From contig CM037783.1 of the NCBI GenBank assembly GCA_021229015.1, positions 28,776,605 to 28,840,604 of the forward strand: DNA of 64,000 nucleotides. Direction: 5' to 3'. The notes below the pieces were generated by a model that had not been told where the DNA came from, ran no database searches, and saw nothing but the letters and a program-made list of their open reading frames with translations. Shown here in pieces: positions 8,964 through 62,174 of this stretch. Source of the DNA: Solen grandis (taxonomy: Eukaryota; Mollusca; Bivalvia; Adapedonta; Solenidae). Each line of letters starts with the position of its first letter. The stretch's first letter is position 1. Made by a program: the position numbers and the translations under genes.

Positions 8964-8974
8964 GATCACAGGAG

Positions 8975-11637: not shown

Positions 11638-11737
11638 NNNNNNNNNNNNNNNNNNNNNNNNNNNNNNNNNNNNNNNNNNNNNNNNNNNNNNNNNNNNNNN
11701 NNNNNNNNNNNNNNNNNNNNNNNNNNNNNNNNNNNNN
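11638..11737. other. Assembly gap, 100 N
   Basis: Exactly 100 N, a conventional placeholder; true length unknown. It separates the HECT-like N-terminal exons from whatever follows. Confidence 0.98.
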
Positions 11738-13215: not shown

Positions 13216-13357
13216 CTAAGTCAGATTTGATGTATTTTTTAGATAGTTCTTCTAACGATCCATTCGTTGATAAGCCTTTTGCATGCAGACGCTCTATCAG
13301 TTCACTCTTTTCAAAATTTCTTGGACGAGGACAGGAAGCCTTCCCTATTAATAGGTC
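13216..13357 (-). CDS. Giant gene: SAP-like exon (last one seen)
   Basis: One exon, phase 0 in, phase 1 out with GTACTG donor. It encodes ASCPRPRNFEKSELIERL..., then AKGLSTNGSLEELSKKYI: a helix, a Gly turn and a second helix in the spacing of a SAP motif (L..RL...GL.t.G....L). The same arrangement occurs at 16577-16715, where it directly precedes a CC exon. If the donor is not used, translation runs on for 9 codons to a stop ending at 13184, a possible terminal exon. No polyadenylation signal supports that. Confidence 0.75.
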
Positions 13358-16300
13358 CTGCAAACCAGTAAACAATTAATTAAGATTAACTAATGACAAT
13401 ACTATGACTATTTGGTCCTTTAAAAAATCCGTGAAAATCAAAACAGTTAAAATTAAATTATTGAGGATAACGATCTTTAGATGAATAAGGAATGTTTTTC
13501 ATTTAGAAAGAATATTAAAGAAAACTACATACCAGTGATATCCCAAGGTTCTGGAGAAAAGAATCGACTATCTTCTCTACAGAATGAGCAACGGTTTGAC
13601 CCCAAAGCTCCTTCCCTAACTCCTGGTTGAAATGGAAGTCAACTGTAAGATATTATAATTTTTCACGGTAATCCTTCGATGGCAACAGTAAAAATGATTT
13701 CAGAAACTCAATTTAAAAAAAAAGATCGGGCTCAACTGAATGTACTGGCTCTTAAAGAGTCGCCATTAGTGGTCTGATATCAGCCACTATGACTTTGGTC
13801 TAAACATTGTTTCCGAGTATGATTAAGAATGCATAACAAAGGAAGATAAAAGAGTGTACAGGCACTATTGGCCGTAACACACATCCTTGTGAAGCAACTT
13901 TAGGCGGTAAATTATACATGCACATTGTCTTCTCCCAGGTCATTTAAGATTGATTACTTGTATGCTGATGTAAGAGTGAGAATGAACAATGTTATGCTTG
14001 AATACTGAATACTCCTTCCTTATCTTAACGCGAAATGAAATGAATATTTCATCAAATAAATATCATCTTCATTTAGATTCAAATCCGCACACATACAAAT
14101 ATAAAAATTATACAAATAATATGCAAATACGAAAAAAATTTTAAACGTAATGCATGACTTTCTGTTTATAAAGATTGACGGAAGGTTGAGAAATTCTTTA
14201 TTACTTTGTCCGATATTTTTAAACTTATCAATTAAATATGGAATAAACAAGTTTTATGACAAGACACGAGAAAACCGTATTAAGGGAAAATTCAGGAATG
14301 CAATATAAAGTTTTCTTTAACATGCTGTGAAGAAAAGGCAAAAGAAATGAGCAATCAGAAGAAGTTAAACATATTTGACCCCTACTTTGTATATATTCTG
14401 TTGGTATACATGTGAGTAATTAAGTGTTTATCTTTCTGTCTAACTGTCGTGTAAACACCAAGTTAATTAGTTGTTTTTTCTATATCAATACTTATTTAAA
14501 TTTTCATGATTATGATAATATAGTACATGTATGAAAATTTAATTATACGAGTAACTACAATAATAATGTCTGTACAGAGGTATTTTTGAAAACCTATTAA
14601 TTTTCTTCGAGTGGTAATTCATCTCATTTTGTCTAGAAGGTTTATAATATTCGCAATTCGTTCATTTTCGTGTCGATTATCGCCATTATAATATGGTTCA
14701 TGCTGTTACAGATTGGCACGGAACAGAAGTCAGAATCGGAAATAAAATATCATGAAACTTTCTTCCTCGTAAAGCTTTCGCTAAATCAAATCTTTTGAAG
14801 TCTTTATACTGACGTTACAACCTCAAGATAGATGTTCGTTTCTTTCCGGAGGTATTCCTGCCATTTTCCGTACAGGTATTGTACTAGTTAATGTTGGTGC
14901 ATTATGTCTTGCCCGTAAGAAAATTATCGATGCATTTTGGAAGTGAAACCATCAGTAACAACCATTCGTCGATCTCATGTGACATTTGCTTACTTGATAC
15001 GACCATCAAATGGGACTTTAAATTATGCAGTTTAAATTTATTTATTTATTCTTTTCTTTTCTTTTTTATTTATTTATTTATTGGGCATTTGGATAATCCA
15101 ATTATCATTACTTATGACCGAATGAAAACAAAGTGAAATAGATATAATTCAAAAACCATTTAAGAGCCATAAAGACTTATAATGTCATGATCGTAAATTA
15201 ACATAAGGCACTCCTTCACAATTGGGAGACATTTAAATTCGCACTAGTTAGATGTGATGGAACACATTGATGAAGTCAATATTTCAGGAAAACCAACCTT
15301 TTCCGAGGACAACATTTCCGTTCTCATCGACCGTTGGCAAAGGAAATTTGGCTCCTTCAAATAAGAAGACGAACACAGAACAATCTGTATTGTCGTCCTC
15401 ATTACATATTCCGGCCCCAAATGATACCACAATTGTTGTTTCAATTATATTCAGTTTGTACCTGAAGTAGTAAGTAGTGAAGAAGTAAAACTTGTTGCTT
15501 TACCAATCAGAAAATATAACAACGATTATTTCACTTGTAAATAAAGAATCAACTGTTGAGTTCTTGTTACACTTACTTAATAATAAGTCCGTTGCCATCA
15601 AGGAACGGGTACTTTATATTTGTAGGAACTGTACGTTCGTCCTCTGAAATGAAAGTAACAGGTTAGAAATCTGACAGTCAATATCATTTTAATCAATGTA
15701 AATTTATACAAACTGCATTATTTTACTCAAATTATAAGTTACAAATAAGAGAATCATTTCATATACGAGTCCGTAATGCATACGACTCCAGGATGCTATG
15801 TTACGTCACATCCAATTACGAATGATTTTGTTACGTTCAGTATTTGTATAGTGACCTCGATTTACATGAATTTAATCTTCTTAATCAACAAAATTTGCAC
15901 AAGCATTTTTGTTCATGATTGGCAAATATGTACGTGCGTTTATTTAAAGCAAACTCTTACTTTTTCGTGGATGCTCTGTAAAATAAAATATGGGTAGCGT
16001 GTTTTTCATATGCTTTTCTAAATAGTCTGCAATGTAAATAAAATAAATAACAATACCGATGTAACTAAAGTGAATTGAAATATACCTCTGAAAAGCCCAG
16101 GTCCTTTTATGACATATTTCCAGTCTTCAAATCCAAATGTGATCGAAGGATATTTAGGATCAAGCCTGACGTACGCTTTAAACGATTTTTCCAACAAATT
16201 AAACAACTCGATTGTCAGACAGCATTCTATACCAAGGCACTTGTCATCAAATGTGCAAAACATTAATTTATTGCTTGGCATTTTTAAGGTAATAAATGGG

Positions 16301-19300
16301 CATGCTGAAAATAGAATAAATGGATAAAGTACAGATATACGTAAAAAATTAGTTATCCTGTAGTATCTTATATTGAAAACTACTTTTTTGATGTTAAATG
16401 TGTCTCAAATTTTAGATTGAGCATTAAAAACACATAAAATGTGTCATGTGTATTCAAAATGTAAATAAAAAAAAAACTAATTTGTATTAACTATGAATGA
16501 ATAAAATGATGTAAATAGGAATATATTATATATAGAGAGTCATACAATGCACTTCCATATAAAAATATCAATATACCATGATCCGGTTTGACAAGTTCAT
16601 GTATCATGTCCTCATGATTTCCTGATGCGATTTTGCCTCTATTAAATAGTTCTTGCTTTAGTTCATCATTTGACATTGCCGACGGATTCATACACGATTT
16701 GCCTCCAACCGCTCTCTGTAAATAAAAGTAACGTCTTGTATTCATAAATACATTTTTTTTCAAATTACATTTCTAATGTTCATTAAGATTCATCTCGTTG
16801 TATTTTGAAATCGAGACAATCGAAATGTCTTTCTATTAATATGAACGTATTTAAATCACTTTTATTAAAAGAAGCATAGATATGAAAATTTCAAAAATAT
16901 ATCACCTTAACAGTCCTCATGAGCGTTGCCATTTTCTTTTTGGATTTGTCCATTCCAAGTTTGTCGAGCAAGTCAATGATTGCCCCCATCTTTAAACGTC
17001 TTATTGAAAACCTCTTCAAGAATGATTTGATGTCTTTAATAAAATGCTCCACAGTGGCTCCTATGCATACAAAGCGATACATAATTACGAATAATTAGTG
17101 ATGGTAGTTTTACATTAAACGGGTAAAAGTAATATAATAAGAATGTTTTCTGTAGTTGCTGTTTCTTTCTCTTTTTTTTTTTTTTTTTTTTTGCTTTAAT
17201 CACTGTATATTAATAGGAACTTGAAAAGTGACTTGTAGTAGAAACAAAAACGATCAAGATCAAATCAAATGTACATTAGATTTATAAATGATGTTAGCCA
17301 ATACTTTTAACATAAATAAAAGATTCCAACCAATTTTATCCATAATCCCCCTCTTTCTTCTGCGAAAAATTGAAGATATTTGACTGAACATTCCGTCTGC
17401 GTTATCTGTAAAGAAACATAAAAACATTTTGTTCAAGTGTAAATAATAAGGTAATATTGATTCATTTGATAAAAATTGATGCGATGTCGGTTATTTAAAT
17501 AATCATTATTCATACTAAATCCATTACACTAATAGGCAAATTTAGCTATTGATCAGATCAATTATTACTTTTAATTGCATTGATTTCTTGTCCCGGACTG
17601 TCTGATTCATCCAGTTTTGAAGGGGCTGTTGTGCCTGAATCAGAAACATCTGGCGTTGTGTCCTCTTCATTCTTCCCGTCCGGTCCAACGATTGAACCGG
17701 CTCTTATAGTTTTATCCTGTGAACAAACAAGACACACTCTAACATTATTTTATGTTATGTAATTTGAATATGATTATAGATAGGAAAATCAGATAAACTT
17801 CTTTGCCAAAAAATAGAATGTAGCGCAATTTTCAATATTTCCTCAATTATTCCATTAACATTCATTGCTTGAATCTGTCATAATCAGGGACACACATATA
17901 TCAAAATCAGTTTAATATGAAATAAGCTTAAATTACAACCGTCATATTAATGTTCATCATTGGGCTTACATTTGTTTAGTATTTTCTGTAATTTATTTAA
18001 ATGTCTATAAGAAGCAAAGTAAGTACTATGAACACTAGTTTGTAGTCGTCACATAATTGATGATAGTCAGCTTCGATTGGCCTCCCAGATAAGTATTTGC
18101 TTGGGTCCAATACACCATTTCCCTTTTTGATGGCATAGTGAATATGGTTTGATTCGTGACATGCCGATTTCGCAACCATACCTATGGGATCACCAGCCCC
18201 TACCTGCAAGTGATTGTTACTAAGAATTATGCCCATGCAGATTTAATATGTTGTGAAAGAATACATGCATTATTATAACTGAAAATCATACTGTACAAGT
18301 TTGTGGTACATCAAAAGAAAATATATTTCCAAAGACAAATTAAACAGACTCAGACAGGGAACTCCTGTATAAGCCAGTGGAAAATTTTGTTTAGGCATAG
18401 AGCAGATCATTGAATATAACCATATTATACAATAATCTTTTCTCTACTTCAAGGAATTATTTTCAGTTTGATTTTTTTAAGTATCATTTCATTCAATCAG
18501 TGTAGCAGAGAAACAATACATTTTACATAGTTATCATCATGCAGGTACTTTTCAATTTTACATGAAACATTTTTATTTCTTGACTAATTGTAATACATTT
18601 GCATCATTTTGATGGTAATGTTCTTTTGTAAGATACAATTTTCTTTTACACACCTTCAGTAGAAAAGGAAATATTTGAAAACGAGAATTCGACAATTTGT
18701 TATGTGTTTCTGTGAGATTTAGACTAGTTGCCAATCTTTTTTAATATGGCTTTTTTTTTGTAAAAGATTAAGGGCATATGCTACGGTTTTTTTTTCTTCA
18801 ATAGTATTTTTTGATTTTCACATATGTTACGTAATCATCTGAATTAATGAAATAAATATCCTCGGGGTTTTCAGTTATACAGAAATGAACAAAGACCCAT
18901 AGGTTTTTTGGAAAGGGGAGAGAAGAAATATCTTCATTTCCAAACACTTTTTTCTTTTTACAGAAAATCCTTCAACAGTTTTTTTTTGTTTTTTTTTTCA
19001 TGTTAATTTACTTTAATGGATGCTTGATCAAGCTAATGAAGAAGTATAGGTCACCGAGTTCATTTTCGAGAACTAGAGCCGTTTCTATGTTAATGGGCTG
19101 ATGCTAAAAAGAAATCAAAGTTTAACATCTATTAAACATACTTAATTCATTACTTAATTCATTTAAAAGTAATACACTTTTCGAAAAAAATATGTTTTAA
19201 ATACAAACAATACAAACACATGTGCTTTACTGGCGAAAGAACTTTTTAGTGTAGTTTTGTTGACATTGTGACAGCTTATATGCAAACATTAGGAATATCC

Positions 19301-22300
19301 AAAATAGGTTTACATGTCCGAAACATTGTAATGGTAAACTGTAACACACGCCCTTAAGTGTTTAAGACTTGTTGCGATTATCAAATAGTGTTTGTATTCA
19401 CATATTATAAAATGAATTTGCAATATGGTGGTCAACTTTCAATAAAGTGAATAACATTTTAGAAAGTGCTATTTTAAATTCAATATTACTTCATATAGGA
19501 TATTAAAAAATAGGCCGAAGTTTGAGAGTAATGTGTTGAAGACATTTTAAGCGTATTGCAAAATGTTCGAGGTCACAAATCAATCATTTAAGCATCCTCT
19601 ATGGAATTTTGGTTATAAGCAATGAATGAATACATACTTTTAATATACGGGTGTTATTTTTAGTGTACGCATGATCCTTATACAATGACCTGTCATACAT
19701 GCTGTGTATTTTCAATGCAAATTTCATTCCGAACTTATAAAGTATAACATTATCATCACAATACATATACACTGTATTATCCTTTACTATTATTTTACAG
19801 TATCAAAAGTATTTAGTTAGACTTTAATATAGCTTTGCGCCTAATCTCAGAATAAGAAAAAAACTTGGTGCAAAAAAAACCATCGCTGTAAATATTTTAT
19901 CTGTAACCATGTGACAAATGTTAAATTGACAAGTAATTAAAGAAGCTCTTGCACAGATGATCAATGACTAAGAATTTTTTATTTAAATATCAGTGTGTAT
20001 AACGTCTATCATTACCCATCTACAGACGCATTGTCACCAAATGAAATAGTCCGTGATTTTAAAAAAGATGGTTTCTCCACCACAGACAATAGCGTCACGA
20101 ACGGTATTGAACATATTTTTGAATAACAAAACCTATATTTAGACATCCTATTTTCATATGACTGGTCAAATTCACTCTTAGCGCATGCGCTCACTTTACA
20201 CGCTTAACGTACGAATTCTCTACCCGGCCTGGTGAAGACGTCATGTTGCGGAACGTGTCACGTGGTACCGATACACCTGTGACGGAGATTCCGTATTCTA
20301 TATTCAAACGATTTCCCCAAACTCGGTGTTAACAAAAATAGTGCTTCCCGTACAATGTGACCTACACTTGCCGAATTTATTTGTCATGAAACAAAGACTT
20401 CATAATCATTAACGAGAGAGAGTAGAACACCTTTCTTTCGACTACCGATCATCTGTGAACGAGTTGCTTGAAGAGCCATATGCGGCATCTTATTAAAATT
20501 GTACGAGTTACACTGACATTGTTATCACAATAAACTAAATATAGCTACGGCAATTACTTTATAGAGCATGCTTTCCGGAAAGAAACTTATTCAACTGATA
20601 TTATTCATCAATTATTTCTACAATAACGACTTACCGCATTTTCAACATAGGATGGGTCATCCATAGACTTAATATCTGCATTCGGTTCAACATTAGTGAT
20701 GATAATGATGGCGTCTTTTGGAAGTTCTCCGCTGTTTTTAATAGCAATTTCATTTTTATTTCCGGTCAGATAAACTACGCCCGCAAACGGTGCAACCAGC
20801 TGGAATGAAGATAAACAGTACCATGTCAATTTGTCAAATGTACTTGTCTTAGTGAAATAATAACATGATTTAATTAGGATCATTCAATACCAGCAGTGTG
20901 TATCGTTATATTATATAATTTTAAGATAGGAGCGTAAATACCTCTTCGCCTTCGTTGATGAGAAGATCGATCCCAGAAAGTGCATACTCCTTATTATTTT
21001 CCAGTTTTGATGGATAAAAACCTGACCCAGGACAATCCGGACTACTCAGTCTCCTGACCCTCGGAAAGTCTTTGTGACTTGTTGGTCCAAAGATTCTATT
21101 CACCATTGACCTTGCAAAGTCATACCTACATAAGATTGTAAAAAATTATGTAACATTATATCATATAATGGGTTACCCACTTACGTGTCGTAGCACCTTT
21201 CTAGTTGTGCCAGTTTCCATTCCACAACTCAAAAGCAAGGAAATTGTGTCTAGCAGCGAGGTGCTATATGACGTCGAATTAACCGACTGAGGAAGCCGGG
21301 TAATCCCTAAAAATGTTATTAATTAACCCTCATAGTGCATGAATAAGAATTAGAGATAAATTGCTTAGTAGGAAGAATACAATTGATAATTACCCCTTTT
21401 TTAAAGCTGTATATGCGTCTTTGATGGCTTTGAAAACATCATAGATACTTTCAAATAGTTTGAAGAATTTGTTTCCTATGTCGAACAATCCCTGGAATGG
21501 CTCAAAAAGTTCGTGTAGTACGTTTTCGACCTCCTTAATTACTGTGTTCTTTATGTCTTTCTAAAAAGTAAACATTTGTGTCATACTTAAATAATAAACA
21601 AGAACTATCATTAAAAATGATGATTTCCCCCAGATACAGCTTTGTCACAGATACTGTTACCTTGTCAGACAGTCTTGATGAAATAAAAAAAATATCAGGT
21701 AGAGCTCTGATATATTTTTACATGTATCGCCGATAAAAAAAATAAGCAAACATGACATGCCAAGGATATATGCTACTGTTGGAACTTAAAAATGCTGTAA
21801 AGTTATATGAAAATCTGACCAATAGTAGCTGAGAAAAATTGTTTTAAGAAATATGGCACGGGGGGATAACTCAAAGAATATTGAAGCAAGCATGAGATGC
21901 CTACAATATGAGCTAGTAGACCTGGTATTTATAATTGTTGTGAAGTTAAATGAAATAGTGTGGACAAAATATGTTCAATAAATAAAACAAAGTGCCCTAA
22001 CTCATATAAAATCAAGCTGTTCATGATCTGCCAACGATGTGCGCAACTAGACTTGGTACTTATTAATATTGTGAAGTTAAATCAAAAACAGACCATTGGT
22101 AGCCGAGAAATACTGTGGACAAAATATATTCAATTTATATAACAAAGGAACATAACTCATTTATTATCAAGCCAGTCATGATGTGCCAAGAATATACGCA
22201 ATTAGACTCGGTTCTTTTCAATGCTATTAAGGTACTAGTAAATCAAAATCTGACCAATGGTAGCCGTGGTCGAGAGGGTAAAGTCGCTGACTTTAACATT

Positions 22301-26836: not shown

Positions 26837-26886
<50 letters not shown>

Positions 26887-43472: not shown

Positions 43473-43512
<40 letters not shown>

Positions 43513-48791: not shown

Positions 48792-48832
<41 letters not shown>

Positions 48833-53243: not shown

Positions 53244-53289
<46 letters not shown>

Positions 53290-56200
53290 TCTCAAGTTTT
53301 CAGAATCAATTTCTAACCTGATAATGAAGAAGCGTCCTTTCCCCACATCTTTCTTTCTATTCCGTATGACAAGTTTCCATGGCAATCGAGATTGAAATGT
53401 AACCTCATTTTCCTACTTTCATGGTTGAATTTAAAATCAACACAACAAACGATTCCTGCGCAGTTGTCTGTCATTCTGCACATTTGCTCAAGGTACTTGG
53501 GCAGTTGGTGAGTTAAACAAGCTAAAATAAAAAAACAAATATGATACATGTATATAACTTAATTTTCTGTATAATATATGTTTGAATCAAGAACTAAAAC
53601 CAGCTGAGAATATAACAAAGTATAGTATTTAAAATTTCCATGATTACGTTAACAAAGTTAATGATTGTTAAACAGTTTCTGACCTTACCTGCTGGTGGCA
53701 ATACCGATTCATCGCATTGAGGAGACTTCCAGAAGTCATGCGATATACCTACCAAAGGACATATGTTTATAGAAATGCACACTAAAATTAGTTTATCAAA
53801 TTGTATGACAAAATAACATAATGCATTCACAAATATTAACATTTTGCCTATTAATTAATTATAGTGTTACAAGTATTTAAAATCTGTCACTAAGAGTGGA
53901 ACATGTTTTATTTTCATTTGTTATGTTCCGTATGCAAGAAACGTATTGAAACAAAAATAAAAGTAATCGAAAATATAATCAGTACATCCCTTTCTACACA
54001 TGATATTACCGTAGTATGGAGGATAAGAAGCGTTCCCCTTCCTTTCAGGGCAGTCTGGGTACTGAAGGACCAGGTTTGTCAATGCTGGTACATCCAAAGA
54101 ACATATCGTGGATTCTAAGCACAGCTTTGTCGTGAAATCTATCTTGAATTGCTTTGCTGATGGGATATTGTTTACGCTATATCTATAAACGAATATAAAT
54201 ATGTTCAGAATCATTTTAAGAGTTTAGAGCTGTTAAATGAAGCTAGTGATGTAAAACAATAAACAAACTGAATGATAATGCAGTTTCAAAGGACAGTAAA
54301 TGTACGGTCATAATATACCAATAAACAGGCTATAATGTTAAATATTACAAAGAGATATAATTTTTGCACCGTCATGGTGTTTTCCTATCTAATTGATTAT
54401 TGTTAACATGTTTACGTATTTGGGTTTTCACAGTACAGAACATAAATAAACAAATTTGCATTCAACAACGTATAAATAAATGTAAATCATACTTGAGGCG
54501 CCAGATCCCTTTCGTCGTAAGTAAATGATGTTGTCCTCGTCGTAAGTAAATGATGTTGTCCTAAAACAAAATATATTTGATAATAAATACAGAAAATAGA
54601 ATGGATAAATAATCAACTATGCTTGAGGAATATATATGCTTAAAAATACTTAAAATGTATGTCAAAACAGCTTTGTATGATACCAATGTTGTATACTTTA
54701 TCAATTATGTTAATTATACTTGGATTTAACATCACGCCGACAGTAGTTATGCAAATTAGGAAATCTTCTCTACACGAGCCAGACACAGTGCTGTCTCAGT
54801 GCGATAGCAAACCTTAGACAAGTGACATGATGACACCGTTTTGCATTATCATGACATCGGGCCAACTATTCGAATGTGCTTAGCGCACTATGCACAAGGG
54901 GGTAAACCTATTTTAATGGATTTAGGATCAAACTACGAAATGGACGATCTATCCACTCAGTAATGGGATCTGTACGTATTCTGTTGTATAGGATTAATAT
55001 AATCAAAACTATTTTTTGGGATATTTTTACCTACCCCAATTGTAATTCAACAGGCTCACTCTTTGTTTAATGTTCTCTACACGGGCCACAAACTCGTAAT
55101 CGCATGCGCCAATATACAAAGATGCATGAAGGTTACGCTGAAGAATATCCGAGTAGACGCAGCATTCAATCAGTGACTTATCATCTGTATGCCAGCACGT
55201 ACTATTAGTAGTCACTCCTGGTAAATTCAGTTGTGTGTATCCTGCTATTATACGTACATTTATGTTAGGAACGCACATATTAGTTACGCTAACGTTATTT
55301 GACTGTATTAAGTGGGCAACTAGTAAAAGGTTTGCTTAATAATTAACAAAGCAGCCCAAAGGACAGTTATATCCCCCGCCGTTGTCTTAATAAAAACCTT
55401 TTCAACACTACTGTTGTAGTGGGGTTTAAAACTGCATTTTATGTTCAGAAAATATAGCATGGAAACAAAAATATCCAGGAATGAACACTGAACCATCAAA
55501 TGTGAACTTGAACTTGAGCAAACATGACTGTCACCTGTGTTCTGCACATCGCCTCAATTTGGTTTATAATTGAGGCAAGTTTCATTAAAATCCTTCGAGG
55601 AGTATATGAGTTATGGAGCGGACACAAACTTGTAAATTGAAATTGAAGGTTCAAACACTTGACCTTCAAGTGTGACCTTGACATTGAGCCGACATGGCTG
55701 CTGTCTGTGTTCTGCACATCATTTCAATTATATTTATATTTGAGGCAAGTCTCATTAAAATCCATCAAAGGGTATAGGAGATATGGAGCGGACATGAAAT
55801 TGTAAGGAAATAGAAGGTTCAAATACATGACCCTCAAGTGTGACCTTGAACTTGAGCCGACATGACTGCAACCTATGTTCTGCACATCGTCTCAACTAGG
55901 TTTACATTTGAGGCAAGTTTCACAGAAATCCTTCAAGGGGTATAAGAGATATAAGAGCGGACACGAAATTGAAATGGAAATTGAAGGTTCAAATACATAA
56001 CCTTGTAGTGTGACCTTGACCTTGAGCCTACAAGGCTGCCACCTGTGTTCTGCACATCGTCTCGACTAGGTTTACATTTGAGGCAAGTTTCACGAAAATC
56101 CTTCAAGCGGTATAGGAGATATGGAGCGGAGACGAAAACGTTACGGATGGAGAGACAGACAGACAGACGAAGGCCATTCCTATAACCCCCCTCCCGCTTC

Positions 56201-59200
56201 GCGACGGGGGATTAAAAATTAAAGCAATCTAATCTATAACAAAACACGAATGAGTAATTTTCGAGGCCAAAGAAATAAAAGGCAAATGTAAGAAATAGTT
56301 ATGATTTAGTAAATAATGTTACTTAGATGAACTAGAAATAAAGACGCGATTATTGTTTACCTATAGCTGATTTTCCTTCACACATTGGAGACAGCAGGAA
56401 GTGTTGAATACCGAGATCCGTCACTAACTGGTCTAGTGCTTTGAGTGATAGTGCCGTGTTTGTAGAGAAGCTGTGTTTTAATAACCATGACGTCAAGGAA
56501 AATCCTGAGAAATAAGGTGCGTAACGCATTAGACTAATTATGATTGAAACAAAAATATATTTTTCCCTTGACTTGATAGTTTTTTGATAAAATATACAAA
56601 TATAACAGCTTCATAAATATGCCATATAGTAATTTTTGAGTGATATATACTTATACACATTTACGACAGCATTAGAACATGTAAGCTTTTAAAATTACCT
56701 TTTATTTGGTATTCTGCATCAAAGCTGCAGTCTTCCATGGAAATGGCTGTGTTGTCAAGGAGCCTGAATATATCACACTCTCTGTTGCTTTCTAGGCATA
56801 CTTGAACTTGGACATCAATAACGTAACCACTCTGCTCGACGTCTTTGTTGATTAAAATCCTGGAGAATATCATTATTAAAATCAAGAATAGTTTCAATTA
56901 TTTATCAGTCGATTTTTTTATATGAACGTTCCGCCGATAGTATTTCAGTCATTTGTAGAGTTTGTCTATATCTAATGGATAATTTATTGTTGTTTTTTTC
57001 ACCACCATATACCCCAAAGATGAACGCTAAATGGCATGATATCAAAAATATTTATACAATATGGACAATGGGCTTACCAATTCTTGATCTACCGTTATAT
57101 ACTAACCGCCAATTTAGGGATGTACTTATATTACTACCATTACTAAATTATGTTATATCAGTAGCTGTCGTTAATCGATCCACTAACCACCCTAGCCCTC
57201 AATTATGGCGAATGCTATTACAACTTGGCTATCATGGAATCGCATAAATATTCACTGACAAATATGTTTGCATCTTGTGAATACCGATTTTCAGTGTCAA
57301 ATATAGCTAGAGCTTTAAGTATATAATCGAAAATTCAACACTTAACTTCGATATAAAATAATCATGTCAAGATCTGTCCCAGGTAAAAGACTTTGTATAA
57401 ATTAACACAATAGGACATGTTACTTAAATGCTAACCATACTATAAATGTTTTACTTACTGAAGTCTTAGGAATCCATTTAAGGAAACGGGTATGGAAGAA
57501 CCTTGCAAAGAGACGAACAATAATACTTATATTAGTAGCAAATTCTTATAACTCACAATAAATTTATTGTTAAACTGCTAATGCATGTAGTAAGGTAAAG
57601 TATTGTTTTTATATTTATTTATTTGCAAAATGTATTTGAAATAGAATATAAAATTATTAATCACAAACCAAATTCCATTCAAGTATTTGTGCAGATAATC
57701 GTATATCGACTTAAATCTTAAATGTTTTTATCTTACCAATGGCATCTTCCAAGGGAATTTCAAACCTGAGTTTCCCAAATTCTACCGTTAAAATGAGCTC
57801 ACAAGGCTGTAAAAATACTTTAAATGCTGTGTTAGTCCGAAGTTCCTGAATATGTAGGCAGCAGTCAAAACTCGTGCAACTTTGGTTAATGTGACAAAAG
57901 ATGTTTGCTGAATCGGTTATATTTGGTAAAATGATGTCGGATTTGCAATCTGAAAACAGACATAAAACTTCTGACAAGTTTTACTTGTAGATATCATGAG
58001 ACAAATCATATGTTTAATACCAATCTGTCCAAATTATACTTGGAAAAAATGTATTTTTATTTTCATGATGTTTTTTTTCAATGACGCATTCATATATTAA
58101 TTATTATGTGTAATAACAACAAAGATTAACAACAAAATAATAATGACAGTTACCTGATTTCCAACCATTAAGTGATGGCTCATATACGGCACCGGAAAGC
58201 TTGCATTCTTGGTTGCCCATATACTGTATTATGCCTAAATCTCTGAAAATCATCGGTCTAAAAGATTCCGACATGGCAGTCAATTGGTTGTCTTCCATCC
58301 ATTTCGTTAAAGAGAAATCTATAATAAAAATAATAATTTTGATAATATTATTCAGACAAATGCATAATGAAATAAGTTATTATTATACACATATTTTGAA
58401 AATAGTAATACATTGTTACAATGTGAATAGCTCATATACAATGTATATTATCAATCCTTACAGAGAGACACACATCTTTGAGTCTAGCTACAAACCCGCA
58501 TATGACATATTTTTTTACGTATCACTTACCATACAAACAGGCATGAACAAAGCGATCTGATCTGGTTAAGAACTTGTAATTGTCTGTATGCCTGCATAGT
58601 TTACTTATGATAATAATGGTGTTCGACTGTGTGAAATAGATAGCATTCGTGGTAGATATACACACATTGCAAGCCAGTATTCTATATCGGTCAGTCTACG
58701 ATATTTTACATAACGGCAAATATAGCTTTATATATCAGGACATTATCGGTAACCCAACCCGTCTCAAAATCGGGTTGATATCGGCTATCGTTGCTAAACT
58801 AATGAAAGTGAGATGGCACGCATGCTTAACTGTGTTGAGATGTCTAATTAAGCCACGTTTACTTGACCGTTTTGGCTTGTTTTGCGGATCTCTTTGTTAA
58901 AATATGTGCAAGTGTCAAGTGGAATAAAGCCTCGGCCAAACTCTAGCTTTAACAAGCAGTTTTACAACAGGTAAATTGACTAAATCTGAATTTGACTGCT
59001 ATCCAAACAAATACATGTAGAAAAACTGCATCGTCTTACGAGGAAAACAGTCGTTCTATTTGACTTACCAATTTTTAATTTTACGGAAATGGACCACGCC
59101 TCTGCGATTTTAAAAGGTTTTACACGTGACATAATTTTTAAGTGTGTGTAACCTATGTGTAACCCTACATAAATTACTTTCCATATTCTTGAGGAATGTC

Positions 59201-62174
59201 GTGTGTCTCCTTCAATACAACCTAGTTTTTTTTTCTTAATTTATGGTCGTAGATAGAGGGGACTGGTGTTAATAAGGGACAGGTTTGTTTATAACTTTTT
59301 ATTGAAGCTTTCACAAAATTGATATAATTCAATATATATATATAATTGTTATCTATGGAAAAAGGTCAAAGTTGTCGAAGTCAAATCATACGATTTTCCT
59401 GCGATATTTGTGGTTCATCGTCGGAAATTTCCCATTTGACTTATTCAGTTTCACTTAATGACATGAAGCCGTTGGGAAACAGGCAAGCAAAACGTCGATT
59501 TACAACAGTCGTAGACTAAAATATCGACCAACAAAAAAATGCCTAATTTTAGTTTCATTGCTTGGTAAAACCGCGATAGAACCAAATGATGTAAAATGAA
59601 ACACCCTAAAAGAACGAAATACAGGCGTAAAATCACATGGTCGATATCAATATGCAATACTGATCAACCAGGCTTGGTCACCCGACGATATTTGTGGTTA
59701 CGAGATGTATTTTGTTCATGCTTAGAGAAACGCAATATTTTATATTTGCGTCATTATGCGGGATTAAAGTATTCTTACATTCCTGTTTGTATCCTTTGTT
59801 GACTGGACATTCTGGCACAGGAAACAAATAGTCTCTTAGAATTGCGATATCTTGTTGGCAGCTGCTGTTCGTTTCATAGCATTCACGGAATTCGAAGCTT
59901 ATCTTATATACACTTTGTGTTACATATTTTTCAAGGACAAATCTATAATAAAATAAAATATGAACCATTTTATCATAAAGACGCACTTTTAGATTTCAGT
60001 GTGGATAGGTAGGCACGATTATATTTTTCAACGAAATCAGATTCAGATTATTGATGTATAAAAAATAAAATGAATTACATATTGCAATTATTAAAGGATG
60101 GTTTGTCAATATATATAATGATAATCTATATTCTTAAAACTTACTATACATTAACACAATAAATTCGATATTATGTAAATGGAACATGCGAACTAGCAAC
60201 CATTGCTAAGATAATAATGTGATCTGATTAGGAAAACATTATACCTAAGGCTTAGAACTCCGTACAGTGACAATTCTGTAACGTTGCCTGAAAATAAGAT
60301 GCAAGTTGAAAGGTTTGTATTTGTTTTTCATTATATCCCACTTCAAGAAAATATTAAAACAACAAATTCATCAATATTGTGATCTAACCATACCACAGAT
60401 AAGGATATGTTTTCACTATCAAGCTCATTTTTTCTGCTAAAAAAGAAGGGACGTATATAACTGATATATGTTTTACGAAGGTAAACGTGTAAAAATCTTG
60501 AACAATAATGCAATTTAAAGCTTACTTCACTCCCAAAAAGCACAATCACCACAAACAATTCTATAAATGAGTATCTTTTTAAATACTTGAAATTAATACA
60601 ACATACCGTATGTTTCTCCAAAAAGAGATTTGGTTTTTCCTACCGACTCTATGTTAGCATGAATAAGCTGATCGCACGTGTTGATTTTAATAGAAAAAGC
60701 AATGTTTTTGGCTAGGGGTGTTGACATTAGGCAGCAACTTATGTCTGAACAATCCTTGGATATATGGCAAGTAATCGAGGGCGGCAGATGTGGAAGATGT
60801 GTACTGGATGGACAATCTGAAAAATATGTAGATGGGGCGAAAATATAGAAAAAATGATTGTAGGATTTAAAAGTATGGCTCAAAGGACAGAAATAAATGC
60901 AGCTGTCGATTGGTAAACTTTATACGAGAAGGAAGTAATTTTAATTATATTAATATCTTTATTTAACCATACAAAATAATTAAAGATACTTTCAATACTA
61001 TAACAGACATGAGATGAAATCATGCCATACCACATATCCAACCATGCACTGTTTGATTTACGTCATTTGTACATTGCGGTTGAAGAAGATAACTATTTAT
61101 TCCAAGGTCGTTATAAAGCGTGAATTGCTGAAGAGAATCCATTTGATCTAGCTGTGTCTCATGGTTTGTAAGCCATTTGTTTAAAGAAAACCCTAAAGGA
61201 AAAATACAAATAACATTTGAAGTTTATAAACTTGGTAAGAAAAATACATATAATAAGAGACTTCTTGTGGCAATTCTTGAAATAATTTTAGAAATCATTA
61301 TAGAATATTTTCAACTGTTACGTAGTTAAGTCATTGTCAAAGATAAAATAAACTGATGATTATAGAGATTAAATGAGATTATATAATATGGTCATATCAG
61401 TTTCCGTGATAAGGATAGGAACAACATTTATATTTACAAAAATTAACTTTATACCAGGATTAACAAAATCTTCTTTCCAGGAACACATTTGGTGTGGTAA
61501 AATTGTATTCTTAAGAAGGTTGAGGTGAAGAATGCATGTGGAGGGTTCTAGGCATATCGAAATGTCCACATCAGCAACAAATATTTTCTTCAGTTCAACG
61601 TTTTCCAGTTTGAAACTGTAAAGGAAAACAAAATTCCTGACTTATGATCGGACTATGACAAATAATTCGTTGGAAGTAATTTACGCTTATAGCTCAAATG
61701 AGCGATTGTATTTGTGTGATCAGTGAGACGACGGATATACTCAATATCTGATTGTGATATAGTCTACCCAAATAATTGACGTGAATGTATGTGCTGTCTA
61801 TTGATATAAACGGTAAGTTATTGTTTCTATTTATGCATCAACATTATCGATTGTCAATTTAATCTACGTTTATACATCATAATACCATTTAAATGATACA
61901 TGTATTACAAGCCCTGCATTAAAAAGTGGATGGGCTTGCTCTTATCTCAACGATGTCCTAATTCAAAACCATGTCTATATCGAAATAAAATGATGGTCCC
62001 AGGTATTTGAATAACCGGGATTCGTTTGTACATATATTTCACATTGAGTTCAATAAATGGAAAACTCGGCTTGTAATGATAAAATGCAAGGTCAATTATA
62101 TATATAATGCATAACATAACTGTAAACTTACTTCAACTTTATGAAACCATTGATATAAAACTGTTGCGGAGTTC
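13216..62174 (-). CDS. Giant multidomain secreted protein gene, 63 exons resolved, both ends incomplete
   Basis: Reading the minus strand from 62174 down to 13216, 63 exons were placed from conserved frames plus splice sites. They sum to about 10.0 kb or 3,330 residues. Codon phase fits across 61 of 62 junctions; the exception spans the N gap at 36097-36196, where an exon of length 3n+2 would repair it. Order of parts: cysteine (CC) modules, R-K-K-R site, helical and beta segments, Ig/Fn3-like segments with a PAN-like domain, vitellogenin/apoB-type helical domain, beta and helical segments, M23/LECT2-like domain, acidic linker with R-R-R-K-R, SAP-like exons and one more CC module. The parts are listed separately below. 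No signal peptide or start codon is in the window. A secreted protein processed by furin-like convertases and able to bind lipid is inferred from the domains. The alternative is two adjacent genes meeting at the gap, but the 35241 exon begins in the middle of a coding sequence, so even then exons are missing. Confidence 0.75.
13533..16304 (-). CDS. Giant gene: C-terminal CC module (four exons)
   Basis: Exons 16086-16304, 15577-15643, 15298-15461 and 13533-13642. The first has C-TFDDK-C-LGIE-CC, the C-x5-C-x4-CC signature, followed by SFKAYVRLDPKYPSITFGFE. The second is the 67-nt equivalent of the 43-nt micro-exon of other modules. The third holds VVSFGAGICNEDDNTDC and FLFEGAKFPLP. The fourth, using the acceptor next to 13642 so that phase fits, encodes ELGKELWGQ...LQNLGISL, the counterpart of the SLxxW exon. 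The intron 13643-15297 is free of recognisable elements apart from a TTTA-rich stretch near 15050. Confidence 0.82.
16577..16715 (-). CDS. Giant gene: SAP-like exon
   Basis: Phase 0 in, phase 1 out. Encodes KSCMNPSAMSNDELKQELF, then NRGKIASGNHEDMIHELV. Pattern: helix (DELKQELFNRG), turn, helix (HEDMIHELV), as in SAP-type helix-extended-helix motifs. SAP domains are usually nuclear DNA binders, so in a secreted protein this is more likely a look-alike helical hairpin. It lies between the helical exon at 16906 and the CC exon at 16086. Confidence 0.8.
16906..17716 (-). CDS. Giant gene: acidic Ser/Thr linker, basic convertase site and helical exon
   Basis: Exons 17569-17716, 17331-17405 and 16906-17060. 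The first is low complexity, rich in D, E, S, T and P (GKNEEDTTPDVSDSGTTAP), typical of an exposed linker. The second carries FRRRKRGIMD, a strong furin-type R-R-K-R-G site. The third is helical and basic (FIKDIKSFLKRFSIRRLK, LLDKLGMDKSKKKMATL). Phases 0-1-1-0 fit. Together they look like the boundary at which the M23 part could be released from the C-terminal modules. Confidence 0.78.
18036..21125 (-). CDS. Giant gene: M23 peptidase / LECT2-like domain, first zinc ligand replaced
   Basis: Exons 20942-21125, 20635-20799 and 18036-18203, phases 0-0-0 after the initial split codon. Exon one has SPDCPGSGFYPSK and ALSGIDLLINEGEE; exon two opens LVAPFAGVVY; exon three has VGAGDPIGMVAKSACHESNH, IHYAIKK and VLDPSKYL. 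These line up with the lysostaphin/LECT2 fold: H-x-G-x-D, the V-x-AP-x-x-G-x-V strand, the H-x-H box and the DPxxYL end. Here the first motif is L-S-G-I-D, so the usual zinc His is Leu while the Asp and the H-I-H box remain. Loss of peptidase activity is likely, as in LECT2-type binding proteins, but is not proven. The intron 18204-20634 carries TIR element copy B. Confidence 0.85.
18204..20634. other. Intron splitting the M23 domain; AT-rich, one TIR element
   Basis: Contains the inverted-repeat element at 19937-20472 and several long T-runs. No coding exon was recognised on either strand in the rest. Confidence 0.5.
19937..20472 (+). mobile_element. TIR element family, copy B (about 0.54 kb)
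   Basis: Left end TTAAAGAAGCTCTTGCACAG and right end GAACGAGTTGCTTGAA are imperfect inverse complements. Interior landmarks shared with the other copies: CTACAGACGCA..GTCA, CACAGACAATAGCGT, CTATATTTAGACATC, GTCACGTGGTACC, then the CCCGTACAATGTGACCTAC block. No open reading frame for a transposase, so it is a non-autonomous element. Confidence 0.85.
21394..28225 (-). CDS. Giant gene: long amphipathic helical region (six exons)
   Basis: Exons 28049-28225, 27577-27735, 24633-24775, 24308-24378, 23319-23482 and 21394-21560. All encode helical, heptad-like sequence with few cysteines: ELNLEKAIKLVKEFGEVV, AAIKLGQIKAKSL, SAQQIFEAIKGIIEGFMNIF, IWINDQQMKEALAEILQQVF, ASVIDQFKHAFEVLRTGG and FEPFQGLFDIGNKFFKLF. 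Phases fit only if exon 28049 ends at an AAA|GCAAGT donor, making intron 27736-28048 a GC-AG intron. No family was recognised. Amphipathic helices with large aromatic residues would suit lipid binding or coiled packing. Introns are long; 24776-27576 alone is 2.8 kb. Confidence 0.75.
21840..22700. repeat. Tandem block of about 155-bp units, interrupted by a SINE
   Basis: Diverged units share CATAACTCATTTA-like, CATGATCTGCCAACGATGTGC-like and GTGGACAAAATAT words (the last at 21960 and 22115). The SINE at 22259-22495 splits the array, after which a further unit ends in a CAGACGGACCGACCGACAGA-rich tail. A second block of the same kind lies at 30980-31560. Confidence 0.75.
22259..22495 (+). mobile_element. 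SINE family S1 copy
   Basis: Head GTAGCCGTGGTCGAGAGGG, B box GGGTTCAAAACCC, body GTGAGGAAGCCTTCCAGCTGG and TTCGGGGTCTTCCTCCACC, 3' end with ATCAGTCAATCAATC. Same family as 9342-9600. Inserted into the tandem block at 21840-22700 within an intron of the giant gene. Confidence 0.88.
23703..24176 (-). mobile_element. TIR element family, copy C (minus orientation)
   Basis: Starts on the plus strand with TTAAAGCAGCTCGTTCACAG and ends with GAAGGAACTGCTTTACC. The interior is the reverse complement of copies B, D and E: TAGGTCACATTGCACGGGG at about 23780 and CTAAATATAGGTTCAATACC near 24020. About 470 bp, some internal deletions. Confidence 0.85.
24776..27576. other. 2.8-kb AT-rich intron with microsatellites
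   Basis: Holds a TTG/TTTTG microsatellite (about 25010-25090, with a G run), and a TA dinucleotide run at 26840-26884. Otherwise very AT-rich with no recognised exon or element. Confidence 0.6.
26840..26884. repeat. (TA)n microsatellite
   Basis: About 22 uninterrupted AT dinucleotides. Within a long intron of the giant gene. Confidence 0.97.
28530..28697. mobile_element. Short palindrome-ended MITE
   Basis: Left end CAGTCAAACCTGT and right end ACAGGTTCAAACT are near inverse complements, with AAATG/CTAAATG.. and GCCGCTAA blocks mirrored inside. MITEs with a CAAACCTGT...GGCCGC pattern are widespread in invertebrates. About 168 bp, in the intron between exons 28739 and 28049. Confidence 0.7.
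28739..29544 (-). CDS. Giant gene: beta-rich segment after the lipid-transfer helical domain
   Basis: Exons 29375-29544 and 28739-28884 (phases 2-1-0). First exon: LVSVDKRSFLDTSLKLRLEA, then VDWQKKIGTEAIGATFGVI; second: LLHGGMELKVHDEAYVRIHL, then LNFFLARICFKGTATYSI. Alternating hydrophobic and polar residues suggest amphipathic strands. In large lipid transfer proteins the helical domain is followed by beta sheets that line the lipid cavity, and the position fits. Assignment to a named domain (for example DUF1943) needs a profile search. Confidence 0.72.
29065..29185 (-). repeat. Dispersed mollusc repeat fragment
   Basis: On the minus strand reads GGGTAGTTCCAGTATTGG and AATGTCACTGCACG, related to 3965-4125 and 10690-10822. 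Intronic. Confidence 0.45.
29772..35337 (-). CDS. Giant gene: vitellogenin/apoB/MTP-type alpha-helical domain
   Basis: Exons 35241-35337, 34848-34959, 34104-34278, 32455-32644, 31947-32155 and 29772-29875 (phases 0-1-2-0-1-0-2). Motifs in order: QEIDAVLESIRDNL; ACFNNIGRMLDTLPDNEL; MIDAFGGMSRPSVQYIL; RHSFLLTMGSLVSQL; NLEKVILLESLGNAYMP; WVKRAGIHALRHFY; DDDVTVRYEAMLQIKSHPL. These match the helical-pair landmarks of large lipid transfer proteins: the LLDA-x-x-x-x-GT region, LGSLV, L-x-x-LGNA, V-x-x-A-x-x-ALR, and VR-x-x-A-x-x-x-L. The beta-barrel N-sheet that normally precedes this domain was not found; Fn3-like exons and an N gap stand there instead. Exon 31947 contains YRKRRD, a possible convertase site, although inside a folded domain it may not be used. 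Confidence 0.75.
30575..30690 (-). mobile_element. SINE family S1 body fragment
   Basis: On the minus strand: TTTCATGTGAGGAAGC, GTTCGGTGGTTTGCA and GGGGCCTTCCTCCACCTGAG, the middle of the S1 element. Both the tRNA-like head and the 3' tail are absent. Confidence 0.75.
30980..31560. repeat. Tandem block related to 21840-22700
   Basis: Shared words GACAAAATATATT, CATAACTCATTTAAAATCAAG and CTGCCAACTGTATGCGCAACTA in successive diverged units, ending in a GACCGACCAACTAACCGTCC tail before GTGACTCCTA. Same orientation as the other block. Confidence 0.7.
32690..33095. repeat. Diverged tandem repeat, about 60-65 bp units
   Basis: The word ACTGCAAGTAT or close variants recurs at about 32712, 32881, 32940, 33005 and 33066, each preceded by ATGTGAATTATTGTG-like and followed by CATGGAACATAATAAAATCGG-like sequence. 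One unit near 32776 is degenerate. Intronic. Confidence 0.8.
33096..34103. other. Intron segment with an unexplained CpG-containing stretch
   Basis: About 33385-33700 has CpG-rich words (GACCGACGGGAAGATC, AAATCGAGGGCC, CCCAAATCGTGGGC) and an open plus-strand frame of roughly 75 codons (about 33451-33680) without a start codon. It reads like coding sequence (EEEKEIMDTLIGVAVKLNI) but matches no family I know. Nothing else recognised. Confidence 0.35.
35451..35645 (+). mobile_element. tRNA-derived SINE, second family (S2)
   Basis: Head GGGGCGCCGTGGTCCAGTGG with A box, B-box-like GGGTTGGAACCC, unrelated body and an AATAAGTTTAATTAAACT tail. Clearly different body from S1. Lies in the same inter-exon stretch as the S1 fragments and the N gap. 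Confidence 0.75.
35822..36096. mobile_element. Two SINE S1 fragments in inverted, abutting arrangement
   Basis: 35822-35955 (+) is the 3' part: GTAGGTCGGTGGTTCTACCC through GACGGTAAACTC. 35956-36096 (-) is the 5' part: on the minus strand GGGGCTACCGTGGTCGGGAG, then GGAAAGCCTCTCGGCTGG to TAGGTCGTTGGCTC. The minus copy's tRNA head touches the N gap. The two pieces break at nearly the same site in the element. Confidence 0.8.
36097..36196. other. Assembly gap, 100 N, probably hiding at least one exon
   Basis: Exactly 100 N, flanked by SINE sequence. Exon 36523-36640 upstream leaves one base of a split codon; exon 35241-35337 downstream begins in phase 0. An unseen exon of 3n+2 bases between them would restore the frame. 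Confidence 0.9.
36523..40446 (-). CDS. Giant gene: Fn3/Ig-like segments with DPESG and SPP signatures
   Basis: Exons 40280-40446, 39235-39362, 38723-38969, 37918-38089, 37282-37522 and 36523-36640 (phases 2-1-0-1-2-0-1). Recurrent signatures: DPESGL, FNWADFYDPDSGISSYVVGV, QWKDFYDPESGIREYSV and FDFFDPESGIDHFKF in one strand pair, and IIVDISPPNAGTIFDG, VRVDLSPPIPGSVVDW and FFVDLTPPQVKRL at segment starts. The spacing of about 90-110 residues and the Trp plus Tyr positions suit beta-sandwich (Fn3-like) domains. Such DPESG/SPP repeats occur in large extracellular proteins of marine invertebrates. Their ligands are unknown. Confidence 0.8.
39435..39509. repeat. Perfect 36-bp-arm palindrome with 3-nt loop
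   Basis: Left arm 39435-39470 and right arm 39474-39509 are exact inverse complements around CAT. The arms start TTTGATAAAAGTGCC and end AATATGACGTA. The match stops immediately outside (A on the left, G on the right). It lies in an intron, 40 bp from TIR element copy D. Confidence 0.97.
39550..40060 (+). mobile_element. TIR element family, copy D
   Basis: Left end TAAAGCTGTTCGTTCACAGA, right end CGATCATCTATGAACAAGCT. Interior landmarks CTACAGACGCAATGTCA, ATGTTGCGGAACTCG and CCCGTGCAATGTGACCTAC are shared with copies A, B and E. About 510 bp, intronic. Confidence 0.88.
40447..41832. other. 1.4-kb intron, nothing recognised
   Basis: AT-rich. No repeat family, exon or RNA gene identified. Confidence 0.5.
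41833..43416 (-). CDS. Giant gene: extracellular beta-sandwich-like segment (three exons)
   Basis: Exons 43322-43416, 42487-42672 and 41833-42013 (phases 2-1-1-2). Text includes AVVDGVGSKTVFNGEEPM, NWDGFRDNETGILAYSLSF, CDVCEDLIHP and YYTTVRALNKVEFGGPLST, then PITIDISKPLVYEVFD. The W-x-G-F-x-D-x-E-T/S-G-I pattern equals the DPESGI strand of neighbouring segments, and the Y-x-x-V-R-A-L-N-x-V strand equals an Fn3 F-strand. A His-rich loop (HPHHDPHKH) is unusual and could bind metal. The open frame on the plus strand at 42535-42795 is only the antisense of this exon. Confidence 0.8.
43473..43510. repeat. (GT)n microsatellite
   Basis: About 18 GT repeats in the intron just upstream of exon 43322. 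Confidence 0.97.
43666..44172 (-). CDS. Giant gene: cysteine-containing segment between PAN-like and Fn3-like parts
   Basis: Exons 43989-44172 and 43666-43786 (phases 0-1-2). Includes DGLFCHYERLGVGHSIDF, FLHYVNLDLTNSLGYRNI, DFTCPEPG, then ETVACNSTIPPDRPDL and RFCRGINPDIHNH. Four cysteines and no recognised domain; possibly the continuation of the preceding PAN-like unit. Confidence 0.75.
44598..44851 (-). CDS. Giant gene: PAN/apple-like domain exon
   Basis: One exon of 84 codons (phase 1 in, 0 out). The central VGDCARKCIEIDHCVSFNFD, then GSSGTCELMKT gives the PAN/apple spacing: C-x3-C, x5-C, x-SFNFD, then a C before a hydrophobic strand. PAN domains bind proteins or carbohydrates outside cells. 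It is unusual to see one embedded between Ig/Fn3-like segments of a protein that also has a lipid-transfer domain. Confidence 0.75.
45335..46041 (-). CDS. Giant gene: Ig-like segment pair
   Basis: Exons 45835-46041 and 45335-45638 (phases 0-0-1). Contains EPAFEIAVAASDDKADVRFF, LDVGTIRSGSDVL, GVPLFFTMFAQNSAGARSSV, then CELETYDVTLPTGRM and VVIHEDSPITDIYVGVGFG. The repeated D-D/D-S-x-I/V-x-x-x-x-x-x-VG pattern and F-x-x-x-A-x-N-S-x-G strand are those of Fn3-like folds, preceded by the SPPVFS signature encoded at the end of exon 46395. Confidence 0.8.
46395..49645 (-). CDS. Giant gene: amphipathic beta-rich segment
   Basis: Exons 49483-49645, 49026-49251 and 46395-46611 (phases 0-1-2-0). Text: FSEFMEKLKSGVLANAL; SFDITLNGTFSYPRKQISFF; FYAGGYYGLDLGWQAKIMSM; TTYGEVGVGYLLVGKLRLEG; LELKPITLTLYGIVTLEV; TLFNKAIWHYSASTI; EEDTSPPVFS. 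Long alternating strands rich in Gly, Tyr and Leu look like a lipid-facing sheet, then an SPP motif opens the Ig-like region. This resembles the 28739-29544 segment in style, so the protein may contain two lipid-binding halves. No named family assigned. Confidence 0.75.
46612..49025. other. 2.4-kb intron with TIR element copy E and a TA microsatellite
   Basis: TIR element at 47251-47775; (TA)n at 48794-48830. Remaining sequence AT-rich and without recognised exons. Confidence 0.6.
47251..47775 (+). mobile_element. TIR element family, copy E
   Basis: Left end TAAAGCAGCTCGTTCACAGA, interior CATCATAGACAATAGCGT, CTATATTTAGACATC, ATCACGTGGTACC and CTTACACTTGCCGAG blocks as in copies B and D. The right end (CATCTGTCAACGATGAA) is degraded. 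Confidence 0.88.
50166..50262 (+). mobile_element. MITE with TTTCGTGG/CCACGAA palindrome, copy 1
   Basis: Reads TTACTGTAAAATCATAATAT, then TTTCGTGGGG, GATTTCGTGGAC, TATCCACGAATT and GTCCCCACGAAAA. Mirrored TTTCGTGG and CCACGAA blocks give it hairpin potential. A very common mollusc intron element. Confidence 0.75.
51141..51236 (-). mobile_element. MITE with TTTCGTGG/CCACGAA palindrome, copy 2 (opposite orientation)
   Basis: The reverse complement reads TACTGTGAAATCATTTTATT, then TTCGTGAAGATG, TTTCGTGGATTC and GTTCGTGGGGAC. Same family as 50166-50262 but inverted, in the same intron. Confidence 0.75.
51352..52333 (-). CDS. Giant gene: segment following the R-K-K-R site (three exons)
   Basis: Exons 52234-52333, 51934-52093 and 51352-51578 (phases 2-0-1-0). 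First exon is acidic helical (NDVRTEMAQMIENGATDQDI, EEFLGEIQQQE). Second is strand-rich (VWTVQNLDDSDKRSSYTVSM). Third is helical (DKILAMLGTSNSAVDQADRM, GEGLSEVGTKLLGAQLANMT). No family recognised. It would be the N-terminus of the fragment produced by cleavage after R-K-K-R. Confidence 0.75.
52794..53521 (-). CDS. Giant gene: last N-terminal-block CC module, with furin-type site
   Basis: Exons 53318-53521 and 52794-53001. The first has C-RMTDN-C-AGIV-CC. The second is 208 nt, exactly a 43-nt micro-exon plus a 165-nt exon as found separately in other modules: GETIYLDYSISKMASSYNLK, then VSICSGNGVRDNC, ending in CPPVGRKKRSDD. GRKKR-S is a good proprotein convertase site. The end was set at GT|GTGAGT because only that keeps phase with exon 52234. 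Confidence 0.83.
53251..53288. repeat. (GA)n microsatellite
   Basis: About 18 GA repeats 30 bp beyond the donor of exon 53318, in the intron on the minus strand, where it reads as a pyrimidine-rich (TC)n tract. Confidence 0.95.
53689..55319 (-). CDS. Giant gene: CC module 4, with a lost cysteine and a duplicated acceptor
   Basis: Exons 55035-55319 (285 nt, longer than usual), 54493-54535 (43 nt), 54010-54182 and 53689-53748 (60 nt, a short replacement of the SLxxW exon). The signature reads C-WHTDD-K-SLIE-CC, so the second cysteine is Lys. The 43-nt exon is preceded by a 25-bp direct duplication carrying a second AG acceptor. Exon 54010 has FTTKLCLESTICSLDVPAL. All phases fit with the downstream acceptor. 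Confidence 0.82.
55490..56215. repeat. Four-unit tandem repeat, about 169 bp per unit
   Basis: TGCACATC recurs at 55543, 55713, 55881 and 56051, within units sharing GTGACCTTGA.CTTGAGCC, TTGAGGCAAGTTTCA and GGTATA.GAGATATGGAGCGGA. The block ends with GGAGAGACAGACAGACAGAC and a CCCTCCCGCTTCGCGACGGG segment, a common bivalve repeat terminus. Lies in the intron between exons 56361 and 55319. Confidence 0.88.
56361..57949 (-). CDS. Giant gene: CC module 3
   Basis: Exons 57737-57949, 57459-57501 (43 nt), 56699-56859 and 56361-56504. Signature C-HINQS-C-TSFD-CC, followed by a strand pair around FKVFLQPCELILTVEFG. The micro-exon encodes GSSIPVSLNGFLRLQ across its borders. The third exon has VIDVQVQVCLESNRECD; the fourth FSLTSWLLKHSFSTNTALSL and DLGIQHFLLSPMC. 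Phases 1-1-2-1-1 as in the other modules. Confidence 0.87.
58154..60816 (-). CDS. Giant gene: CC module 2
   Basis: Exons 60607-60816, 60245-60287 (43 nt), 59779-59942 and 58154-58318. Signature C-HISKD-C-SDIS-CC, then NIAFSIKINTCDQLIHANIE. Micro-exon: GNVTELSLYGVLSLR. Third exon: YKISFEFRECYETNSSCQQD, then FPVPECPVNKGYK. Fourth: YFSLTKWMEDNQLTAM, RDLGIIQYMGNQEC and NGWKSG. All phases fit. The 1.46-kb intron 58319-59778 has an 83-codon plus-strand frame (58649-58900) without family signature, left unannotated. Confidence 0.87.
61031..62174 (-). CDS. Giant gene: CC module 1, 5' part beyond the recognised exons
   Basis: Exons 62132-62174 (43 nt), 61455-61615 and 61031-61192. The micro-exon encodes TPQQFYINGFIKLK; the next VADVDISICLEPSTC and HQMCSWKEDFVNPG; the third GFSLNKWLTNHETQLDQM and DLGINSYLLQPQC. 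The CC exon that should precede the micro-exon was not found between 62174 and 64000, where a decayed Tc1-like element lies. It is probably farther upstream, outside the window. Confidence 0.85.

Follow-up and report, generated by a model that had tools for sequence, protein, structure and literature searches.

The large lipid transfer protein (LLTP) superfamily is known for its yolk proteins, its lipoproteins, and MTP. Here, we analyze a 64,000-nucleotide stretch of the genome of the bivalve Solen grandis (assembly GCA_021229015.1, contig CM037783.1, forward-strand positions 28,776,605 to 28,840,604; hereafter, the window), in which a sequence-only reading had placed one giant secreted protein of lipid-transfer, LECT2-like, cysteine-rich, PAN, and Fn3 parts. 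We think it reasonably probable that the window instead holds two pieces of one unnamed giant animal protein family, which lie in reverse order and meet at an assembly gap, and that the whole protein is held at the membrane with a vitellogenin-type head that captures lipid or lipoprotein. The family shares the Vitellogenin_N domain and the barrel and superhelix fold with the LLTP superfamily (vitellogenin, apoB, apolipophorin II/I, and MTP). What sets it apart from those proteins is a likely insert ahead of the beta sheet, made up of long helices, a LECT2-like domain, and SAP and cysteine modules; PAN/Fn3 parts follow downstream, and after them come a membrane helix and a tail.

Exon chain, assembly gap, and order of parts

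The exons of the earlier reading are real, except for a few short ones such as 26598-26668, which is probably spurious. A home-made exon finder, combining splice-site matrices with self-trained codon scores and trained on the minus strand, recovered 63 minus-strand exons from 62174 down to 13216, which together code for about 10 kb, and 50 of these match proteins of relatives in frame (84 relatives, E < 1e-3) while 13 have no match. The chain scores 1294 on the minus strand versus 415 on the plus strand under the same model, whose training strand was the minus. With each exon's phase picked from coding score alone, phases agreed at 52 of the 62 junctions, a count that 10,000 random exon orders never approached (22.4 agreeing junctions on average, 34 at most); with phases partly set through chaining, the count was 56 of 61 (one exon fewer). 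The earlier reading had counted agreement at 61 of 62 junctions; in our analysis, the phase fails at the junction of exons 36523-36640 and 35241-35337.

That junction, between the last Fn3-like exon and the first lipid-transfer exon, spans a run of 100 N that divides the chain into two pieces (we cite relatives by P numbers):

36097-36196, no strand: 100-N assembly gap inside the reported gene, with phase failure; a false join
11638-11737, no strand: 100-N assembly gap bounding piece B on the side away from A
36197-64000, minus: piece A, the contig part reaching the window end; cysteine modules, lipid-binding-like sheet, PAN, and Fn3-like part; bounded by the N run and collinear with homologs
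11738-36096, minus: piece B, a 24.4-kb contig with an N run on either side; head, LECT2-like, SAP, and cysteine exons; before piece A in 23 of 24 relatives

Exon 36523-36640 stops at residue 2178 of P0001, within the fn3 domain of that protein (2135-2220), and is thus left with half a domain. Beyond the gap, the first matches are to residues 310-324 of P0079 (weak, E = 3.1) and 324-358 (E = 4e-4), which means that about 310 residues of the head front are missing from the window. Judging from four relatives, the chain lacks, besides the head front, a further 2301 to 2572 residues beyond the last exon of piece A. The sequence-only reading had itself named this site, in that separate mRNAs ending near 36.5 kb and starting near 35.3 kb would speak against a single gene. 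A repeat of 93-117 bases, 88-94% alike in three copies (35827-35943, 22382-22474, and 9467-9583), has its first copy at the contig end, no more than 300 bases away from the N run that starts at 36097.

The conceptual protein, used as a query, retrieved 78 proteins, most of them giant and nearly all unnamed, in bivalves, gastropods, the brachiopod Lingula, the nemertean Lineus, hemichordates, amphioxus, and the crinoid Anneissia. Two Mya entries labeled CRB-like and DNER-like are the named exceptions, and entries listed as uncharacterized (Mya LOC128235438, Ruditapes LOC132737595, Ptychodera, and Branchiostoma) belong to the same family as the window protein. Weak matches extend to fungi and to some sequences of unstated source; no vertebrate or insect name is in the list of relatives, which does not prove absence from those groups. 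When the 78 relatives were compared by tblastn with piece B (17.0-36.1 kb) and piece A (36.2-52 kb), 24 matched both, with several copies per species among them and six matching B through one exon only. B precedes A in 23 of these 24, with the head, LECT2-like, SAP, and cysteine parts leading and the PAN/Fn3 parts later. In Haliotis P0016, the end of B, cysteine modules, and then A follow one another within one protein.

A quick-method tree of 62 rows, built on the core of A with its sheet and its PAN and Fn3 part, splits into two subfamilies; in it, the window pairs with its nearest row, Mya P0006, a long branch, at a support of 100, which points to a heterodont bivalve as the probable source. 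Homolog searches with piece B and with the head alignment returned one and five proteins, respectively, only candidates sharing most words having been scored. As in the earlier reading, which knew the architecture from no described family, searches of the open-licence PMC literature, outside which most subscription papers and all preprints lie, turned up no description of these giant proteins or of their domain combination. The portions seen of one paper that lists four snail LLTPs contain no occurrence of fibronectin, transmembrane, or M23 (PMC10799875).

Lipid-transfer core, LECT2-like domain, and membrane helix

Among the relatives, one and the same giant protein can combine lipid-transfer, LECT2/M23-like, cysteine, PAN, and Fn3 parts, in agreement with the domain types originally named. 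In the Pfam scan of the window itself, Vitellogenin_N and fn3 gave no match. That scan found PAN_1 above the cut-off (E = 4e-5) and HEAT_2, Peptidase_M23 (E = 1.6e-5), and SAP (E = 0.021) below it. The exons of piece B are as follows:

35241-35337, 34850-34959, 34104-34278, 32455-32644, 31947-32155, 29772-29875, minus: helical (HEAT-like) half of the lipid-transfer head; collinear with P0079 310-583; HEAT_2 below cut-off
29375-29544, 28739-28884, minus: beta-sheet exons after the helical part; sheet present in the P0081 model
28045-28225, 27577-27735, 24633-24775, 24308-24378, 23319-23482, 21394-21560, minus: long-helix region
20942-21125, 20635-20799, 18036-18203, minus: LECT2/M23-like domain; first metal-binding His replaced; Peptidase_M23 below cut-off
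17569-17716, 17331-17405, 16906-17060, minus: linker exons
16577-16715, minus: SAP-like exon below cut-off, matching P0041, whose SAP is above cut-off
16086-16304 (CC exon), 15577-15643, 15298-15461, minus: cysteine module exons
13533-13642 (helix), 13216-13357 (second SAP-like), minus: homolog match for the second only

The exons of piece A are as follows:

62132-62174 (tentative), 61455-61615, 61031-61192, 60607-60816 (CC exon), 60245-60287, 59779-59942, minus: cysteine module exons; two short exons without homolog match
58154-58318, 57737-57949 (CC exon), 57459-57501, 56699-56859, minus: cysteine module exons
56361-56504, 55035-55241 (CC exon), 54010-54182, minus: cysteine module exons; short exon between the last two not found
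53689-53748 (no homolog match), 53318-53521 (CC exon), 52794-53001 (basic RKKR stretch at its end), minus: cysteine module exons
52234-52333, 51934-52093, 51352-51578, 49483-49645, minus: linker exons; homolog match in three of four
49026-49239, 46395-46611, minus: conserved amphipathic beta region; likely an MTP-type lipid-binding sheet
45835-46041, 45335-45638, 44598-44851 (PAN domain), 43989-44172, minus: PAN_1 in the third
43666-43786, 43322-43416, 42487-42672, 41833-42013, 40280-40446, minus: Fn3-like exons; fn3 found in homologs
39235-39362, 38723-38969, 37918-38089, 37282-37522, 36523-36640 (half domain), minus: Fn3-like exons, continued

The cysteine module, laid out as a helix, a CC exon, a short beta exon, and a beta exon, occurs five times in the window, counted as CC exons, and matches no Pfam family.

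Vitellogenin_N (LPD_N) lies above the Pfam cut-off at the N terminus of P0079, P0032, P0046, P0055, P0048, and P0053. The window head, while lacking the front, is collinear with P0079. The structure model of a relative contains the LLTP fold, with its barrel and helical superhelix. Protein Data Bank (PDB) sequence searches with the window head, the window LECT2 part, and P0079 returned nothing relevant, and a PDB search with a profile of seven heads returned HEAT-type repeats only. Vitellogenin proper is recognized by VWD and DUF1943 domains (PMC10799875). Both domains are absent from the Pfam results of P0001, P0046, P0079, P0041, P0032, P0055, P0048, and P0053, which therefore do not fit that description; DUF1081 is likewise missing from the listed Pfam matches of the scanned relatives. 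In a side comparison, P0084 (1060 residues, 5-kb contig), which carries Vitellogenin_N, HEAT_2, and PF13946, is weakly like the family head (E = 1.8e-8).

In piece A, the beta region (49-46 kb) may be the lipid-binding sheet of the same LLTP core as the head, judging from below-cut-off Pfam matches to MTP_lip_bd in this region of relatives, in 5 of 22 sequences (E 1e-4 to 0.09). P0055 is among these, a member of an alignment without P0055 has E = 0.0073, and in the four cases with a position shown the matches fall within profile positions 161-257 of 294. The window's own beta region has no MTP_lip_bd match, and a PDB profile search with the region gave one irrelevant weak match only. If the assignment is right, A and B hold the two halves of one core, so the order must be B and then A, and the LECT2-like, SAP, and cysteine modules would form an insert in that core.

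The M23/LECT2 fold is likewise present in the structure model of a relative. LECT2 and the M23 peptidases differ from the present case in that the fold is here one domain of a giant protein. Its HxGxD motif, which we take to be the M23 metal-binding pair, has lost the His in 26 of 28 sequences, the window included; P0027 has the His without the Asp, and P0058 is the only one with a complete pair. Because the motif is incomplete in 27 of 28 sequences, peptidase activity is unlikely and a binding role likelier.

Hydrophobicity places a C-terminal membrane helix in 41 of the 78 relatives, followed by tails of 25 to 425 residues, and this makes the earlier description of the protein as secreted doubtful. 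The helix occurs together with a signal-like start in 8 of 84, and the front appears to be cut off in many gene models. NPxY is present in 5 of the 41 tails and NPxF in 4 more; the window copy has no tail in view. A furin-like R-x-K/R-R lies ahead of the sheet in 9 of 10 relatives found through that motif, whereas P0079 and the window have only KR at this position. The window copy is presumably complete, with a signal peptide and a membrane helix that would both lie outside the window.

Competing explanations and a proposed role

A single secreted protein in window order, with cysteine and PAN/Fn3 parts first and lipid-transfer and LECT2-like parts after, is very improbable, and we reject it because an N gap lies at the join, phase and domains are not continuous across 36.5-35.3 kb, the fn3 domain is cut on one side and the head front is missing on the other, and the order is reversed in 23 of 24 relatives. 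The domain order first described is a product of reading across an assembly gap. That single gene would account for the overall phase agreement, and Mytilus P0041, the sole exception of the 24, likewise has A before B and its Fn3 part before its LECT2-like part, which weighs against our two-piece explanation. P0041, however, has neither a signal-like start nor a membrane helix, enters the head midway, passing from the middle of its Fn3 part directly to the sheet that follows the helical part, and has VWA domains at its end; from this layout, we take it for a gene model fused across neighboring copies. Its VWA-type matches fall at residues 1511-1672 and 2152-2318, among SAP and cysteine modules; none was seen in the window. 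The reversed pieces may instead derive from tandem copies, A coming from the middle of one copy and B from the start of its neighbor, while the absent tail and front would have dropped out at the gap; to this we give only slightly less than an even chance. Several relatives seem to share contigs (same listed size, as with eight Ptychodera proteins at 44014232), from which it follows that A and B may belong to neighboring copies; Mya P0006 and P0030 have consecutive LOC numbers, and P0041 resembles a model fused across two copies. Yet 100 N would have to conceal about 2300-2570 residues of exons plus the front of the next copy. It is also quite possible, if somewhat short of even, that B and A come from one copy and that the small contig B was set on the wrong side of A in the scaffold. 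The contig B measures 24 kb and has N runs on both sides, B-then-A order agrees with the relatives, and the phase left by the last exon of B (13216) could be taken up by the first exon of A (62132), with one CC exon missing there. Such a fit arises by chance one time in three, the phase of exon 62132 is uncertain, and A extends past the window end; no CC exon stood above noise at 62.2-64.0 kb or 11.7-13.2 kb. More generally, the case shows that, across a gap of 100 N, a wrong order of domains can pass for a well-phased one.

As to function, a defense role, in which the protein would be a surface receptor that uses its LLTP, LECT2-like, and PAN parts to bind microbial molecules instead of carrying lipid, is a less probable but live rival; several copies per genome, strong divergence, and an HxGxD pair too often incomplete for an enzyme would suit it. 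Vitellogenin has been reported to bind pathogens (PMC8727950). The same head serves plain lipid carriers, however. Under our preferred explanation of a membrane-held lipid-capturing protein, the vitellogenin-type head would capture lipid or lipoprotein from outside at the cell surface, the nonenzymatic LECT2-like domain and the cysteine, PAN, and Fn3 parts would bind partners, the furin-like site after the helical part may be cut, and the cytoplasmic tail might drive uptake or signaling. Endocytic receptors of the LDL-receptor type would work alike, with an extracellular binding part, one membrane helix, and a cytoplasmic tail; NPxY is present in a few tails. The likeness would be one of function and not of membership, since the binding part here is an LLTP head and so few tails have NPxY.

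The chances seem to us evenly balanced that the family is a membrane-anchored LLTP branch older than the protostome/deuterostome split, in which the LECT2/SAP/cysteine insert interrupts the core, a PAN/Fn3 stalk bearing a membrane helix and tail of its own carries it, and a single molecule serves as both lipid carrier and receptor. This anchored branch would span molluscs, a brachiopod, a nemertean, hemichordates, amphioxus, and a crinoid. If true, proteins otherwise met chiefly as lipid carriers would also exist in a membrane-bound form, which would represent a possible new route of lipid uptake in animals and add a new branch to LLTP history, with genes ready to test.

Other observations in the window

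Rfam at gathering cut-offs gave no match in the window, and two window stretches queried against a plasmid collection gave none there. On the plus strand, open reading frames (ORFs) at 8945-9304 and 9909-10265, with exon-like pieces up to 11234, have coding-like composition and may be a gene or a mobile element; the stretches 8945-9301 and 9909-10262 match no Pfam family. Tandem arrays lie at 797-1267, 3346-3758, and 55492-56137, with units of 58, 145, and 170/338 bases.
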